This document shows positions 3,641 to 22,440 of a stretch of 38,172 bases of DNA, piece after piece; the first letter of the stretch is position 1; every line of letters starts with the position of its first letter. The translations under genes were made by a program, and so were the position numbers. The DNA comes from Candidatus Izemoplasma sp. Lineage in GTDB: Bacteria > Bacillota_I > Bacilli_A > Izemoplasmatales > Izemoplasmataceae. The DNA is taken from assembly GCA_007132465.1 (NCBI GenBank), contig SLOP01000044.1, positions 1 to 38,172 of the forward strand. Direction: 5' to 3'. Under the pieces are notes generated by a model. It was not told where the DNA came from. It did not search any database and saw nothing but the letters and a program-made list of their open reading frames with translations.

Positions 3641-4237
3641 TTAAACCAGTATTTTGATGAGTTCGTTGATGTATTTTTCTTTAAACGAGGGGTTTTTTAA
3701 CCCAGCGTGATCATCGCTGTTATCGAGGATTTGCAAAAAGAGGGGAATCGCAAAACTCGAGAACAAAAGAAGGTATTTGGCGCGCAGTGTTTCTTCATCC
3801 CGGATGCCGGTGGATTCGGCAAGTTTCTGTATGATGTTGCGGGTGAAGGGGGTGTCGCTAAAGAAGGCATCGAGCACCATGACACCGGATTCGTCTTTGT
3901 GTCGGGGTTCAAGAAAAATTTGCGTGATGATGCCGACGTTTTCTACGGCGAAGTCGTAGGTAATGTCCAGCATGATTCTCAGGGCTTGTTCGGGAGGGGT
4001 GTTTTTTGGCAAGGTAGCGATGTGGTCTTGTACGAGCGTCTTCAGTTCATCGATGACGCTATCCATGACACGGCTCATGAGTTCGTCTTTTGACCCGAAA
4101 TGGTAGTTAACCGCGGCGATGTTGATGTAGCACGCTTCGGCAATATCTTTGATGGTGACGTGACCACGGGATTTAACAAGAGATTTGGTCGTCTCAAAGA
4201 TGCGGTTTTTGACATCCGAGCTAGGTTTGCTTGGCAT
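3641..4237 (-). CDS. TetR family transcriptional repressor
   Basis: A 198-residue regulator with an N-terminal TetR helix-turn-helix. Helices span roughly residues 8-55, with VTIKDIAEACYINIAAVNYHFGSKDEL giving the recognition helix and the hallmark YHFGSKDEL. The C-terminal ligand domain is all-helical and poorly conserved. The ATG at 4237 is chosen because AAAGGCTGAGG precedes it; an upstream in-frame ATG at 4270 has no such site. It is divergent from an MMPL exporter and shares a 135-bp intergenic region containing an imperfect palindrome, so it most likely represses both itself and the exporter in response to a small hydrophobic ligand. The ligand is unknown. Confidence 0.88.
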   Translation of the reverse strand: MPSKPSSDVKNRIFETTKSLVKSRGHVTIKDIAEACYINIAAVNYHFGSKDELMSRVMDSVIDELKTLVQDHIATLPKNTPPEQALRIMLDITYDFAVENVGIITQIFLEPRHKDESGVMVLDAFFSDTPFTRNIIQKLAESTGIRDEETLRAKYLLLFSSFAIPLFLQILDNSDDHAGLKNPSFKEKYINELIKILV

Positions 4238-4271
4238 AAGCCTCAGCCTTTCATATCGATTTTCAAACAAG

Positions 4272-4292
4272 GTTTTAAAGCATGTTTCAAAC
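4272..4292. promoter_or_regulatory. Candidate TetR operator, imperfect palindrome
   Basis: Arms GTTTtAAA and TTTcAAAC are separated by GCATG, with 7 of 8 arm positions complementary. A further TTTCAAAC half-site lies at 4261-4268. The palindrome sits just downstream of the minus-strand TATAAT and at the expected -35 position of the plus-strand promoter, so occupancy could block both. Confidence 0.55.
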
Positions 4293-4307
4293 GGGGCTTC
4301 TATTGTT

Positions 4308-4315
4308 ATTATACT
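4308..4315. promoter_or_regulatory. Overlapping divergent -10 elements for tetR (-) and mmpL (+)
   Basis: The minus strand carries TATAAT (4313-4308) and the plus strand TATACT (4310-4315), so the two -10 elements share bases. Both -35 regions are poor, which fits promoters whose activity depends on a regulator. The assignment is by inspection only. Confidence 0.45.
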
Positions 4316-4372
4316 GTGTTAAACGTAAAATTAAAATATGCATTTAAAAATAGTTTTAGAGGAGGTGTTCCC

Positions 4373-6409
4373 ATGCATGGATGGTTGGCGAAACGCATCC
4401 GTCTGATTGTTTTCACTGTGACTGCCCTGCTAGTAGTTATCGCGGGGATTTTGAGTTTTCGGGTGGAGGCAAACTATGATTTGACAGCCTACTTGCCTGA
4501 CGACTCGATGACGGCAGAGGGCGTGAAACGGCTTCGGGAAACCTTTGGTGACAACGCGGTCATTGATGTGATGGTGTCCGATGTTGATGACGTTGAAGCA
4601 GGGATAGCCCTAAAAGCGCTGATAACATCCGTTGAGGGGGTTTTGGCTGTGGAATGGCTCGACGATGTGGTCGATGTCACTGACATGGAAGCGGCTGATC
4701 CGATGGTGGTTGCCGGCTACTACCAACAAGGCCACGCCCGCTTCATCGTGATGTTGGCGCATGGACCATACGATGTAAAAGCAGCGACGGTGATGGACGA
4801 GCTACGTGAGATTTTGTCGGACCATCCACTTGCGATGCGTGGAGAAGCGGTTGAAAACGCTGAGGAGCGACGGATTGCCGAGGGAGCCGTGGTGATGATG
4901 ATGGCGATTGTGTTGCCGGTGAGCATCATTATCCTGGTGGTTGCTTCCAAATCGTGGCTGGAACCGGCGTTGGTGCTTATTGTCCTTGGGGTCGCGGTGG
5001 TGCTCAACATGGGCACTAATGTGTTTTTACCGGAGATATCTTTCATAACCTTAACATTAGCCGCAGCCCTTCAATTGGCGATTTCCCTGGATTACTCCCT
5101 ATTTATGATTCACCGTTATTACGAGCATCGTGACGAGGGTGAAGCCGTGCACGTGGCCATTAAGCATGCGTGGATTAGAGCGTTTCCAGCGATATTGGCT
5201 TCTGCCTTAACGACGATTGCCGGGTTCATGGCGCTTTTGTTCATGCGTTATGGCATCGGTATGGACATCGGGGTGGTACTGGCGAAAGGGATTGCGCTTA
5301 GCTTTGTGTCGGTGATGGTGTTGATGCCGCTGTTGATTGCGGCCACACACACGCGCCTTGAAGCGTGGCGTCACCGCGCGTTCGTGTTTCATTTGGGGGG
5401 CCTTGGAAAGGCCATTGTGAAAGCACGTTATGCGTTGGTGGTGTTGCTTGTTTTGCTTGCGGGTGTAGGTTTTTTCTTCCAACAACGCGCCCCGTTTTAC
5501 TATGGAACCTCACGCGGTGATACGGCGACAACGGACGCGGCCCTAGAGGCCCGCAACATACGCGCAGTGTTTGGGGTTAGGCAGCCTGTGGTGGTGTTGC
5601 TTGAAACCATCGATAACGACCGGGAAATCGCTTTAATTAGTGATATAATGCAGATTGAAAATGTGATGTATGTGGACGCGTTGGTGACGCGTGTGGACTT
5701 GGAGACTGTGCCTAAAGCGGCGTTGCCACCGGAACTTGTCATGCAGTACGAACAAGGAGGCATGGCGCGGCTGATGGTGCTGACATCGGTTGTTGAAGAA
5801 GATGAAGCGATGTTCAATGTGCACGATGCGATCGATGCCGCCGTGGCTTCGCACTACGATACCTATTATTTATTGGGACGCATTCCTGGCACGGCGGAGA
5901 TACGGGACACCGTGCTTGCCGACACACCCATTGTGATGTTGGCGAGCGTCGGAGCGATCGCGCTGGTGTTGTTGTTGGTGTTTCGCAATGGTCTAGTCCC
6001 GGTGTTGATGTTGCTTGTCATTCAAGCGGCCATCTGGGTCAACGTGGGCGTGCTCGGTGTGTTTGAGACGCGCGTGGTTTACATTGGGTATTTGGTGGTG
6101 CTCGCGCTACAGCTTGGTGCGACCATCGATTACGCGGTGTTGCTGATGAGTCGCTACCGTGAGATGCGCCGTGCTCGCGAACCTAAAGAGGCTGTTCGTG
6201 AAGCATTGCGAAGGTCCAGTGTGCCCATCATGATTTCAGGGTTCGTGTTGGCCTCAGCGGGATTTGCCTCGGCGGCGACATCGGGGCTTTCGGTGATTGC
6301 CGACATCGGCCTTTTGATTGGTCGCGGCGCGTTGTTGTCGTTGGTGTTTGTGCTGGTTTTTCTTCCGGCGCTTTGTCACCTGTTTGATCGCGGGGTAAAA
6401 CCTCGATAG
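4373..6409 (+). CDS. MMPL/RND family membrane exporter
   Basis: This 678-residue protein has the two-fold RND/MMPL layout. TM1 (about 10-27) is followed by an extracytoplasmic loop, then five helices; the pattern repeats after a long hydrophilic loop from about residue 380. Each half carries the proton-relay motif after its fourth helix: LDYSLFMIHRYYEHR in the first and IDYAVLLMSRYREMR in the second. ATG 4373 is preceded by GAGGAGGTG. The frame is open much further upstream, but that part overlaps tetR and has no start signals. Such exporters use proton flow to move lipids, peptides or hydrophobic drugs out of Gram-positive cells. Control by the divergent TetR is likely. Confidence 0.85.
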   Translation: MHGWLAKRIRLIVFTVTALLVVIAGILSFRVEANYDLTAYLPDDSMTAEGVKRLRETFGDNAVIDVMVSDVDDVEAGIALKALITSVEGVLAVEWLDDVVDVTDMEAADPMVVAGYYQQGHARFIVMLAHGPYDVKAATVMDELREILSDHPLAMRGEAVENAEERRIAEGAVVMMMAIVLPVSIIILVVASKSWLEPALVLIVLGVAVVLNMGTNVFLPEISFITLTLAAALQLAISLDYSLFMIHRYYEHRDEGEAVHVAIKHAWIRAFPAILASALTTIAGFMALLFMRYGIGMDIGVVLAKGIALSFVSVMVLMPLLIAATHTRLEAWRHRAFVFHLGGLGKAIVKARYALVVLLVLLAGVGFFFQQRAPFYYGTSRGDTATTDAALEARNIRAVFGVRQPVVVLLETIDNDREIALISDIMQIENVMYVDALVTRVDLETVPKAALPPELVMQYEQGGMARLMVLTSVVEEDEAMFNVHDAIDAAVASHYDTYYLLGRIPGTAEIRDTVLADTPIVMLASVGAIALVLLLVFRNGLVPVLMLLVIQAAIWVNVGVLGVFETRVVYIGYLVVLALQLGATIDYAVLLMSRYREMRRAREPKEAVREALRRSSVPIMISGFVLASAGFASAATSGLSVIADIGLLIGRGALLSLVFVLVFLPALCHLFDRGVKPR

Positions 6410-12949: not shown

Positions 12950-13198
12950 ATGGCCGTGATGCATGAAATGCTTTCCAACAACGCGTTCGCCACGATGAAC
13001 CGTCTTGAAAAAGGCGAAGAGGGCGTTGTGTATGCTGTGCCAGACGTGCGTTTGTTGGCGTCCTTGGGCATACGCTCCGGTAAGCGCGTTCGCGTGCTGG
13101 CCAAAAGTTTTGCTTCGGGGCCAGTCATTGTTGATATTGAAAGACGTTCAGTGGTCGTTGATCGATCGTTGGCGGCACAAATAACCATTAGAAAGTAG
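12950..13198 (+). CDS. feoA: FeoA family ferrous iron transport accessory protein
   Basis: An 82-residue protein with the SH3-like FeoA fold: MNRLEKGEEGVVYAVPDVRLLASLGIRSGKRVRVLAKSF..PVIVDIERRSVVVDRSLAAQITI. The LGIRxGxxV turn and the final 'a-x-x-I-x-V'-like strand are diagnostic. FeoA is a small cytoplasmic partner of FeoB needed for Fe2+ uptake. It starts at the ATG after GACGAGGTG and is followed by feoB after 9 bp, giving a standard feoAB operon. Confidence 0.9.
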   Translation: MAVMHEMLSNNAFATMNRLEKGEEGVVYAVPDVRLLASLGIRSGKRVRVLAKSFASGPVIVDIERRSVVVDRSLAAQITIRK

Positions 13199-13207
13199 CG
13201 GTACAAG

Positions 13208-14989
13208 ATGAGTTGCGCCACGACTAAATCCCGCGACACTAAGCATAAAAAAATCTTATTAATGGGCTTACCCAACGTTGGGAAAAGCGCCATTTTTTCT
13301 CGTTTTACGGGCATGCATGTGATGGTGTCAAATTACACGGGAACGACCGTGGAGTTTACCGAAGGAAAGATGGCGGTTGGTGATGACACCTACACGCTCA
13401 TCGACGTGCCGGGTGTCTACGACATCAAACAGAGCGTCGATGACGCTGAACGCGTGGCGGTGTCGATGCTTGAGGAGAAACCCGACGCCATTGTGTTTGT
13501 GGTTGATGCCTTAAACGTTGAAAGCAGCGTGTATTTATTGATGCAGGTGTTGGAATACAAGCTCCCCACGGTGGTGGCGTTGAACCGCGTGGATTTACTG
13601 AAGGTGCGTTCGATGCGCATCGATCATCGTGTGATTCAAGCGGCATTAAACGTGCCGGTTGTTCCAACCATCGCCTTGGGTGGCGATTCGCTTGATTTGG
13701 TCAAAGAACGCTTGGCTCGAGACTTGGCTTCACCCGACGCACCGCATTATGTGCTTGAAGAGAATGAACTTAAACGGTGGGATTGGGTTGAGCGAATCAC
13801 GGCTCGGGCGCTAAAACCGTTGTCTGACAACGCCACGATAAGACAAGACCGCTTTGCCTTTTTGATACGTCCTTGGCCAGGCTTGCCCATCGCCATTGGC
13901 GTGCTTTTTCTGATGTTTGCGGCTGTCATTGGCATCGGCATGGGACTCAGGCAGTTCCTCATCATGCCCTTGTTTGAGGGAATCAGGATAGGTGAACACA
14001 CGGTTGGGCTTTTTCCGTGGATACGAGCCGGAGTGGAGGCACTAGGCATCACGGGCACGTTTCAACGGGTGTTGGTTGGAGAATACGGCTTCTTAATTAA
14101 AGGCATTGAGTGGCCTTTTGGGCTTGTGTTGCCATATGTCTTGTCCTTTTATTTATCGATGAGTATACTGGAAGACACAGGTTATTTACCTCGACTTGCC
14201 GTGTTGCTTGATGGCGTGTTTAAAAAAATCGGTTTACCTGGAAACACCATCATCCCCTTATTGCTGGGGTATGGGTGTGGCATTCCTGCGATTTTATCGA
14301 CACGCTCAATGCGATCGCGAAAGCAACGCGTTGCGGTCGCGGTGATGATTTCACTCGCCGTGCCGTGTGTCGCGCAAAGCAGTGCGTTCATGTTTTTGTT
14401 GGTTGAGCATTCTTTGTTGGCGCTCGTTTTGGTGTTTATGATCAGTGTGTTTGCGATGGTGCTTGCCGGGTTTGTGATGGACCGCATCAAGCGTGAACCG
14501 ATGCCTTTGACGTTGACAGAATTGCCGGAGATGTTGGCGCCGAACCCGGCGTTGGTCGGTAAAAAACTGCTTTTCCGTGTGCGGCATTACGTGAAAGACG
14601 GGGCCATTCCAATGGTGATTGCGATTGTTGTGACGGCGTTTCTTTATGAGTTTGGCATCCTTGATGTGGCCGGGCGCGCAATGGCACCGGTGGTATCAGG
14701 ATGGTTGCGTTTGCCAGAAGAAGCGGCGACGCCGCTTATCATTGGCATCGTTCGCCGTGAACTCGCGGTGTTGCCGTTGATTGATATGAATCTGTCGACG
14801 GTGCAACTCTTTACCGGAGCCGTGGTGGCGCTCTTTTATGTCCCCTGTGTGGCAATGATTGCAACCCTGGCTAAGGAGTTCAACGCCAAAGTGGCCGTAG
14901 GCACGTTGTTGTTTACGACGACGACGGCCATTGTGATTGGTGGTTTGATGGCACGATTAGGTGGTCTTTTGGCCACATGGTTAGGCTAG
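13208..14989 (+). CDS. feoB: Ferrous iron transporter FeoB (short form)
   Basis: A 593-residue GTPase-coupled Fe2+ importer. The N-terminal G domain has G1 GLPNVGKS (20-27), G3 DVPG (66-69) and G4 NRVD (126-129). SNYTGTTVE occupies switch I, where the classical form has NWPGVTVE. A helical spacer domain follows to about residue 215. The membrane part contains the two Gate-type repeats, with EDTGYLPRLAVLLDGVFKKI, LLGYGCGIPAI-STR and IIGIVRRELAVLPLI typical of FeoB. It is shorter than the usual 650-770 residues, partly from a compact linker and no C-terminal cytoplasmic tail. The SD is weak, so it may depend on coupling with feoA. Confidence 0.95.
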   Translation: MSCATTKSRDTKHKKILLMGLPNVGKSAIFSRFTGMHVMVSNYTGTTVEFTEGKMAVGDDTYTLIDVPGVYDIKQSVDDAERVAVSMLEEKPDAIVFVVDALNVESSVYLLMQVLEYKLPTVVALNRVDLLKVRSMRIDHRVIQAALNVPVVPTIALGGDSLDLVKERLARDLASPDAPHYVLEENELKRWDWVERITARALKPLSDNATIRQDRFAFLIRPWPGLPIAIGVLFLMFAAVIGIGMGLRQFLIMPLFEGIRIGEHTVGLFPWIRAGVEALGITGTFQRVLVGEYGFLIKGIEWPFGLVLPYVLSFYLSMSILEDTGYLPRLAVLLDGVFKKIGLPGNTIIPLLLGYGCGIPAILSTRSMRSRKQRVAVAVMISLAVPCVAQSSAFMFLLVEHSLLALVLVFMISVFAMVLAGFVMDRIKREPMPLTLTELPEMLAPNPALVGKKLLFRVRHYVKDGAIPMVIAIVVTAFLYEFGILDVAGRAMAPVVSGWLRLPEEAATPLIIGIVRRELAVLPLIDMNLSTVQLFTGAVVALFYVPCVAMIATLAKEFNAKVAVGTLLFTTTTAIVIGGLMARLGGLLATWLG

Positions 14990-21010: not shown

Positions 21011-21559
21011 GTGAACATTGAGACGGTGCTACGAACCGACAGAAAAACCATTAAACAGATTGCCACATTGATGAACGCAGCGTTTGAGCATAGCTACCCG
21101 AGTGTCAAAGTGGCCATTGAGGATTTGGACGAGCTCATGCGAGATGACCACGTGGTGTTGGTGGCGAAGGAAAAGGAACGGATCATCGGTGCCGTGGGCG
21201 CGGTGGCACGTTACGGACACACAGGGTGGGAGTTGCATCCCCTTATGGTGGATGCGCAGCACCGGAAAAAAGGCGTTGGTACAGCGCTTGTTCAGGCGTT
21301 GGAAGGGCGCATGAGAGCCAAAGGGTGCGTGACCCTTTATTTAGGCACCGACGATGAGTTTTCACAGACCTCATTGGCGGAACGCGATTTGTATCCTGAC
21401 GTGTGTGAACACCTCGCGAAGTTGACAAACCTTAAAAACCATCCTTATGGGTTTTACCTGAAGTGCGGTTTTGTGGTGGTTGGCGTCATCCCTGATGCCA
21501 ATGGGCTTGGTAAACCAGACATCATGATGGCAAAACGCATGCCGATGCAATCGCGATAA
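21011..21559 (+). CDS. GNAT family N-acetyltransferase
   Basis: A 182-residue acetyltransferase. LHPLMVDAQHRKKGVGTALVQALEGRM contains the acetyl-CoA loop (RKKGVGTAL), preceded by the strand IIGAVGAVARYG and followed by YLGTDDE. NLKNHPYGFYLKCGFVVVGVIPDANGLGKPDIMMAKRM is similar in layout to aminoglycoside 6'-acetyltransferase-like GNATs of Bacillota, which also carry 'GTDDE' and 'NGxGKPDI' elements. Resistance is not established by this likeness. The GTG start has GGAGGTGGAG just upstream. It is transcribed after the GrpB-like gene and ends at a terminator. Confidence 0.83.
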   Translation: MNIETVLRTDRKTIKQIATLMNAAFEHSYPSVKVAIEDLDELMRDDHVVLVAKEKERIIGAVGAVARYGHTGWELHPLMVDAQHRKKGVGTALVQALEGRMRAKGCVTLYLGTDDEFSQTSLAERDLYPDVCEHLAKLTNLKNHPYGFYLKCGFVVVGVIPDANGLGKPDIMMAKRMPMQSR

Positions 21560-21561
21560 TT

Positions 21562-21590
21562 AAAGGCGGTCGAGGACCGCTTTTGTTTTT
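21562..21590 (+). terminator. Rho-independent terminator after the GNAT gene
   Basis: Stem GCGGTC (21566-21571)/GACCGC (21575-21580), extended by A-T pairs, followed by TTTTGTTTTT. Confidence 0.85.
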
Positions 21591-21599
21591 AGATGGTTA

Positions 21600-21627
21600 T
21601 TGACATATGCCATTAACCTGATACAAT
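21600..21627 (+). promoter_or_regulatory. Strong sigma-A promoter for the DUF134-NifX fusion
   Basis: Consensus TTGACA (21600-21605), 16-bp spacer ending in TGA, and TACAAT (21622-21627): one of the strongest promoters in the window by inspection. Confidence 0.8.
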
Positions 21628-21649
21628 TAAAGTGAAACGAGGTGATTTT

Positions 21650-22390
21650 GTGGCGAGGCCAATGAAACGAAAACGCATTGGGTGTTGCATGGAAAATCGG
21701 CGTTTTGGGCCAGCTGATTGTGTGCCCAGCATGATGCTTCCGATGCCTATTGAAGCCTTTGAAGTGTTTCGTTTAATTGACTACGTAGGCATGGATCAGA
21801 CGGGTGCGGCCGCCCAGATGGGCGTTTCGCGAAGCACCGTTCAAAAACTGTACAAAGAAGCCAGAACGATGTTGGCTAAAGCCTTTGTCGAAGACGCACA
21901 TATTATGATACAAGGAGGAGATTTAACCATGACAACGTGTAGAGAAAGACACCAAACACACCACGGTCAACCCACGGTGACACGGATTTTGATGCCGCTT
22001 GATGGCAAACGCGTTGCCAGTTCGGTGGTGGACGCCGAACAATTTTGGTTGGTGACGATGGAAGCGGGACGTGTGGTGCGCAAAGACACCCTCATCGCTG
22101 AAGGCGACGAGAAGAAGGGGTGTCGTCGTTTTGTGATGTCGCTTGGCGTGAGCACGGTGGTGGCTGCCGGAATGCAAGCGAACGTGCATCAACGCTATAA
22201 AGCATCGAGCATTACGGTTTTTTATGGAAGCGGAGAGAAAGAGGACGTACTCAAGCGATACATCGACAACAACCTTGAGCCGATGCACCGGCATGTGAGC
22301 GAAGGGGCGTGTTGTCACGAAGGCGCTCATGGCGAGTCTAAAGACGGCTGTTGTGAAGCGCACCATGATGAAGAGGCATGCTGTGAATAA
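21650..22390 (+). CDS. DUF134 HTH protein fused to a NifX/NifB-type cofactor-binding domain with Cys/His tail
   Basis: The 246-residue product starts at GTG 21650 after GAGGTGA. Residues 1-90 are DUF134: a cysteine-bearing N-terminus (RPMKRKRIGCC, FGPADCVP), then an HTH of sigma-70 region 4 type (DYVGMDQTGAAAQMGVSRSTVQKLYKEARTMLAKAF). Residues about 110-215 are a dinitrogenase iron-molybdenum cofactor-type domain (ILMPLDGKRVASSVVDAEQFWLV, then TVVAAGMQANVHQRY). The last 30 residues carry three CC pairs with many His, Glu and Asp (GACCHEG, DGCCEAHH, EACCE). The domains usually occur as adjacent genes; here they are one frame, with a strong SD inside the junction. A metal- or redox-responsive role is plausible but not shown. 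Confidence 0.82.
   Translation: MARPMKRKRIGCCMENRRFGPADCVPSMMLPMPIEAFEVFRLIDYVGMDQTGAAAQMGVSRSTVQKLYKEARTMLAKAFVEDAHIMIQGGDLTMTTCRERHQTHHGQPTVTRILMPLDGKRVASSVVDAEQFWLVTMEAGRVVRKDTLIAEGDEKKGCRRFVMSLGVSTVVAAGMQANVHQRYKASSITVFYGSGEKEDVLKRYIDNNLEPMHRHVSEGACCHEGAHGESKDGCCEAHHDEEACCE
21912..21931 (+). promoter_or_regulatory. Internal ribosome binding site at the DUF134/NifX junction
   Basis: AAGGAGGAG (21912-21920) precedes an in-frame ATG at 21929. Initiation here would give a 153-residue protein containing only the cofactor-type domain and the CC tail. The site encodes the linker residues QGGD of the fusion. Confidence 0.55.
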
Positions 22391-22395
22391 GAGGC

Positions 22396-22421
22396 AAAGG
22401 GCGCAAATGGTTGCGCTTTTT
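22396..22421 (+). terminator. Rho-independent terminator after the fusion gene
   Basis: Stem GCGCAA/TTGCGC with an ATGG loop, extended by G-T and A-T pairs, then TTTTTG. Confidence 0.85.
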
Positions 22422-22440
22422 GTTTGCCTTTTGATACAAT
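22411..22440 (+). promoter_or_regulatory. Promoter for the SDR-PAP2 pair, overlapping the terminator
   Basis: TTGCGC (22411-22416, the 3' arm of the terminator), 18 bp, TGA-TACAAT (22432-22440, extended -10). Confidence 0.55.

Follow-up and report, generated by a model that had tools for sequence, protein, structure and literature searches.

Does a single reading frame in a Candidatus Izemoplasma genome specify one protein or two? The question is raised by the gene at positions 21650–22390 of contig SLOP01000044.1, analysed here within the window, the whole stretch of 38,172 nucleotides. Its single open reading frame, running from GTG 21650 to the stop codon at 22390, encodes 246 residues comprising a DUF134 domain, a linker, a NifX/ORP-type domain and a Cys/His tail. 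The initial annotation had described one frame with a DUF134 domain, a NifX-type domain and a CC/His tail, and the reading frame, the profile scores and the three CC pairs agree with it. Judged from comparative sequence evidence, this is probably a two-product gene (probability about 0.8), from which one frame would yield both an autoregulatory long DNA-binding protein and a stand-alone NifX-type protein.

The gene is monocistronic, with intrinsic terminators on both sides (Table 1), and belongs to a genome of 1.43 Mb (45 contigs, 99% complete). Its promoter is near consensus, as first described. The frame is open already from GTG 21632; the extension 21632–21650 is not conserved, and the start common to the family is GTG 21650 (V/M-ARPMKRKR). 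The GNAT acetyltransferase encoded upstream (window 21011–21559) resembles AAC(6')-Ii with an E-value of 1.4e-53, yet scores far under the family cut-off.

Table 1. Features of the DUF134–NifX gene and its flanks (window coordinates).
Feature	Position	Strand	Basis or remark
Intrinsic terminator of upstream GNAT gene; insulates the studied gene	21561..21585	+	11-pair stem, then T-run
Sigma-70-type promoter TTGACA-16-TACAAT	21600..21627	+	11/12 consensus matches; TG before -10
Predicted operator TGACATATGCCA, near-palindrome overlapping -35	21601..21612	.	One of the commonest forms upstream of DUF134 genes
Shine–Dalgarno sequence (SD) of long form, GAGGTGA	21639..21645	+	Pairing -10.2 kcal/mol
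Long-form CDS, GTG start, 246 aa	21650..22390	+	ORF, domain profiles, structure model
DUF134 / sigma-region-4-like helix-turn-helix (HTH), residues 3–93	21656..21928	+	Profiles; modelled helices 34–45, 50–57, 61–80
Internal SD AAGGAGGAG	21912..21920	+	Unpaired in local RNA fold; codons CAA GGA GGA GAT TTA ACC ATG
Predicted short form, 153-aa NifX-type protein from internal ATG	21929..22390	+	Comparative evidence
Nitro_FeMo-Co / NifX-ORP fold domain	22001..22264	+	Sole PF02579 match of the genome
Disordered tail, three CC pairs, His/Glu/Asp-rich	22310..22387	+	pLDDT <50 at residues 224–246
Intrinsic terminator 3' of the gene	22392..22425	+	15-pair stem, T-rich tail

At the N terminus is the DUF134 domain, for which profile searches gave matches to PF02001 (54.0 bits, cut-off 27) and to sigma region 4 (PF08281, 26.4 bits, cut-off 25.7). 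The C-terminal domain matches PF02579 (28.1 bits, cut-off 26.3) and has a fold most similar to PDB 2yx6 (Foldseek E of 6e-7), with ORP (2wfb) and NafY (1p90) matched as well; integrase matches, with E-values of 5e-3 and worse and r.m.s.d. above 10, were judged spurious. By its sequence the window protein is a divergent member of PF02579. The HFG(H) motif is absent (SSVVDAEQF, against HFGHTKEF in relatives), leaving cofactor binding uncertain, and since a conserved Cys (GCRRF) and the Cys/His tail stand in its place, the ligand may differ. CC/His-rich tails are present in most relatives of the window's clade. A genome-wide search for PF02579 returned exactly one gene, this one, so that a free NifX-type protein could arise only from an internal start.

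Such a start lies at the joint between the domains. The SD AAGGAGGAG (21912–21920) is followed in frame by ATG 21929, both as given in the initial annotation, and the structure model refines the location of the ATG: it is codon 94, at the margin of a 16-residue disordered linker (residues 93–108) joining two confident domains, both of which would be left whole by initiation there. Of 300 in-frame ATGs inside the genes of the window, this one has the second-strongest predicted SD pairing, which also exceeds that of the long form's SD (-11.2 versus -10.2 kcal/mol). The only stronger pairing, at 4373, appears to mark where a mis-called gene really begins, that of a large membrane protein (window 4100–6409) whose mechanically assigned ORF start is probably wrong; without it, the internal SD is the best. 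Spacing to the ATG is slightly long, at 10 nt after AAGGAGG and 8 nt after a second GGAG register. Folding of the RNA at the internal start revealed nothing beyond what shuffled sequences give, and the SD is open in the local fold.

Conservation of this arrangement was assessed in fused genes outside the window's family, in which the start codon was placed by protein motif alone, blind to the SD. An ATG is present at the start of the cofactor domain in 58 of 58 genes, and all 58 have an SD core of at least 4 bases located 5–11 nt 5' of it. Of 2,704 ATGs inside flanking genes, 11.2% satisfy the same rule (1.8% for cores of at least 5 bases); for genuine NifX starts in split operons the figure is 23 of 30. 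In a sequence logo built from 54 non-redundant fused genes, the information falls mainly at positions -15 to -8 (AAAGGAGA), -3 and the start codon, with little farther upstream.

The constraint acts on nucleotides. Within the SD zone, 43 of 52 Gly codons are GGA, where 16.4 would be expected from flanking codon usage; the remaining Gly codons of the same genes show no bias (GGA in 415 of 1347, 412.6 expected). The corresponding z-scores are 8–9, inflated by kinship among the sequences, and 0.1 for the within-gene control, which uses the same genes; the seven window-clade members in this test are those that possess the internal start, and the counts retain one mis-set, regex-placed start in the group labelled family B (codon AAT). 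Formed in all three codon phases, the SD is encoded through unrelated peptides (KGE, KEE, QEE, TED, GRN and KRR), which indicates that it is the nucleotides that are kept, and not the peptide. At a domain boundary the fused genes carry a conserved SD with a start codon in frame, and their synonymous sites there are constrained, as expected of an internal in-frame start. Between the two possibilities raised in the initial annotation, recent fusion or two products, the comparison thus strongly supports the latter: separate fused clades have kept the internal SD and its start codon, and the synonymous bias stays within the SD zone.

The fusion itself is old. Among 101 related genomes, those of the window's family mostly carry fused ORFs of 216–268 residues. 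Stand-alone DUF134 ORFs (93–168 residues) are found in a neighbouring family of the order, usually with a NifX-type gene immediately 3' that has its own ribosome-binding site, forming a split operon. The comparison of split and fused forms proposed in the initial annotation therefore places fused genes throughout the Izemoplasma-type family of the window, and also in Clostridia, as three to four separate old clades, with split operons in neighbours and the internal SD conserved. In a tree built from 129 paired DUF134 and NifX-type domains, the 11 fused genes of the window's clade group together with support 99, as do 16 more from the same bacterial family in a second clade (100) and a pair belonging to another family (100); a further, large group, drawn from Clostridia and related families, holds 57 fused genes and 1 split (99), and one fused gene stands apart as an outlier. 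At least four changes of fused or split state are required, and end branches within the fused clades often measure 0.3–1.5 changes per column. Fusion must therefore be old, having arisen more than once or having been lost and regained. A recent fusion is not supported, given this depth and its occurrence throughout the bacterial family. A sequencing error that removed a stop codon, the other concern voiced at the outset, is ruled out, since a gene from the same genus, 66% identical, has the same architecture. One fused gene (L090, G360:C28) has a frame break near the DUF134 N terminus, its internal ATG and NifX domain being intact; this may be an assembly error.

Age bears directly on the alternative that survives best, which we nevertheless consider unlikely: that the SD and ATG are remnants of a separate downstream gene, stranded by loss of a stop codon and now unused. 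Split operons possess just such a ribosome-binding site, and some fused relatives have lost the internal one. Yet the fused clades are deep, and across them the SD persists in differing codon phases, with a Gly-codon bias limited to the SD zone. Moreover, the sole family-B gene whose NifX domain lost HFGH (L040, G014:C63, a fused gene) also has a weakened internal SD (GGA to GGT).

Losses can be followed in the window's own clade. The initial annotation had counted fused homologues with neither an internal SD nor a short product against its reading; a usable internal start is missing in 4 of the 11 window-clade genes (G007, G015, G018 and G022) and in the outlier (G032), but not in the great majority of fused genes. 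These exceptions suggest that the short form is probably advantageous rather than essential, being dispensable in some lineages. Compensation by a separate NifX gene was considered and is unsupported: whether or not they have the start, clade members carry essentially no PF02579 gene besides the fused one. Where the start is retained, it takes two forms. In the window gene and four relatives (G002, G004, G006 and G021), codons GGA GGA/GGC are followed by three more codons and then ATG or GTG, in 5 of 5 cases, whereas G016 and G045 have a KGE-type internal site.

Less probable still is a single full-length regulator in which the internal site serves ribosome pausing between domains to aid folding, or protection of the mRNA; we regard this as very unlikely. 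A slowing of ribosomes by SD-like sequences within genes has been proposed, and in the structure model the site falls exactly at the domain boundary. Pausing would have no need of a conserved start codon, yet the ATG is present in 58 of 58 genes, and changes from Met to Val in the window's clade invariably use GTG. Scarcely credible is the idea that the SD-like DNA arises simply through conservation of a peptide: although the window-clade SD overlies the Gly-Gly of the conserved DUF134 I-x-G-G motif and many junctions elsewhere read Lys-Gly-Glu, synonymous recoding of the same peptides would put SD cores of at least 5 bases into 10.9 of the 54 genes when 36 actually have one, several fused genes build the SD from unrelated peptides, and the unfused DUF134 genes with the Gly-Gly motif (n = 28, covering loci up to L093) have mixed Gly-Gly codons and an ATG or GTG four codons on in 0 of 28.

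Upstream of the DUF134 genes is a second conserved element, a CATATG-centred palindrome of the form TGACATATG(T/C)CA or GTGCATATGCAC. Its commonest forms are TGACATATGTCA (28 genes), GTGCATATGCAC (15, second clade) and TGACATATGCCA (12, including the window). The palindrome lies within 90 nt of the start in 59 of 86 fused and 23 of 73 unfused DUF134 genes, compared with 7 of 644 other genes (1.1%). Given the HTH predicted in DUF134, this palindrome in the promoters of its own genes is a candidate DUF134 operator. Its position, overlapping the -35 element in the window and following the -10 element in the second clade, suggests repression.

The site is nearly unique, at about one per genome, located at the fused gene. 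With up to one mismatch it occurs at two places in the window's 1.43 Mb genome, one being this promoter and the other (C36:39569) probably a chance match. Each of seven second-clade genomes has the exact 14-mer at the fused gene, and it occurs elsewhere only once, in G013. Three genomes of the neighbouring family (L194, L200 and L202) contain two exact sites, one of them ahead of a DUF5320 and NifX-type operon, which suggests a small NifX/ORP regulon. No palindrome within three mismatches of the 14-mer precedes the FeoA and FeoB genes about 7 kb upstream of the fused gene (window 12950–14989).

The second clade adds a NifX-rich neighbourhood: 3' of the fused gene is another NifX-type gene, followed in the two loci read (L037 4671–6717 and L038 5021–6705, in gene orientation) by two MinD/ParA-class ATPases, a context resembling the orange-protein clusters of anaerobes. 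Ferredoxin-type stretches are present in both ATPases of L037, the one locus scanned. Taken with the operator positions and the sites at DUF5320 and NifX-type operons, this neighbourhood makes it most likely that the DUF134 domain would act as a repressor of NifX/ORP-type operons, its own first. As a separate observation, two adjacent family-B palindromes (L181 and L190; G013:C2:225445-225486) lie upstream of an unrelated 319-residue gene, a homologue of which is found near a one-mismatch copy of the palindrome in G025 (L189).

Returning to the two-product reading, we propose the following mechanism. The DUF134 HTH of the long form (246 residues) would bind the CATATG palindrome in its own promoter, most likely repressing it, and the C-terminal NifX-type domain and Cys/His tail would bind a metal or metal–sulfur cofactor that tunes DNA binding. 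Ribosomes entering the same mRNA at the dedicated internal SD and ATG would produce the 153-residue NifX-type protein, which may serve as a cofactor carrier or buffer and might also mix with the longer protein. With both forms made from one mRNA, repression would set the amount of both. Four points here we infer: both proteins accumulate, the long form represses by binding, the signal is a metal cluster, and the two forms interact with each other. Of the metal-responsive switch suggested in the initial annotation, the DNA-binding half has gained a conserved operator; the sensing half is what we infer, and in the window it would reside in a domain without HFG(H). Whether the DUF134–NifX genes form widespread one-gene feedback circuits in anaerobic Bacillota is a proposal we consider evenly balanced: an autorepressor acting on TGACATATGTCA-type operators and a cofactor-carrying partner would be made from one frame through an internal start selected in several fused clades, with dose and mixing setting the response.

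DUF134, a domain of unknown function with scant literature, gains from this a predicted operator, a predicted local regulon of NifX/ORP-type operons and a predicted two-protein output. Fusing two genes, moreover, would not have to deprive the cell of the free subunit, the earlier start being retained at the nucleotide level. Annotation pipelines normally list just the long form of such frames, and small cofactor proteins may therefore be missing from databases. In the literature searched, which covered few subscription journals, we found no functional paper on DUF134, UPF0251 or the operator sequence, nor proteomic or ribosome-profiling data for the short protein; apparent mentions of DUF134 in three papers, two on iron starvation and one on an encapsulin, are the longer numbers DUF1349 and DUF1345. 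Within that scope the predicted DUF134 operator is new. Internal in-frame starts are already known (AerR, Cas11b and SpaO/Spa33); the new element is a test, at the level of nucleotides, of such a start that lies where two domains are fused and that several clades have kept.

The closest relatives in gene content are the operons of stand-alone DUF134 (UPF0251) and NifX-type genes, with the same domains in the same order and often the same operator palindrome, but as two genes separated by a stop codon where the window has one frame. For the C-terminal domain, a parallel is MrpORP of Desulfovibrio, whose NifX/ORP-type (Di-Nase) domain binds Fe–S clusters (PMC6345978); a homologous domain, that of the orange protein, binds Mo-containing clusters according to papers cited in that work. 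Both MrpORP and the window protein fuse a NifX/ORP-type domain to another, which in MrpORP is a P-loop NTPase (PMC6345978). The window protein is not itself an MrpORP: it has no P-loop, and its score of 48.5 bits (cut-off 450) comes solely from the C-terminal part.

Production of a full-length protein and a C-terminal subunit from one frame is known for the short forms of SpaO/Spa33 (PMC13059759, PMC10302723), and the C-terminal subunit Cas11b of archaeal type I-B systems likewise arises by internal translation (PMC11899642). These belong to structural complexes rather than to a regulator, and their sequences are unrelated to the window gene. Among regulators, a parallel is AerR of Rhodobacter capsulatus, which exists as long and short isoforms with opposite actions, the short one made from an internal in-frame start with an upstream ribosome-binding site (PMC6199135). 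Like AerR, the window gene would provide a cofactor-binding regulatory protein in two isoforms. AerR, however, has cobalamin as its ligand, and its short form lacks only about 40 residues (PMC6199135), whereas the internal start of the window gene lies between a whole DNA-binding domain and the NifX-type one, and several fused clades have retained it.
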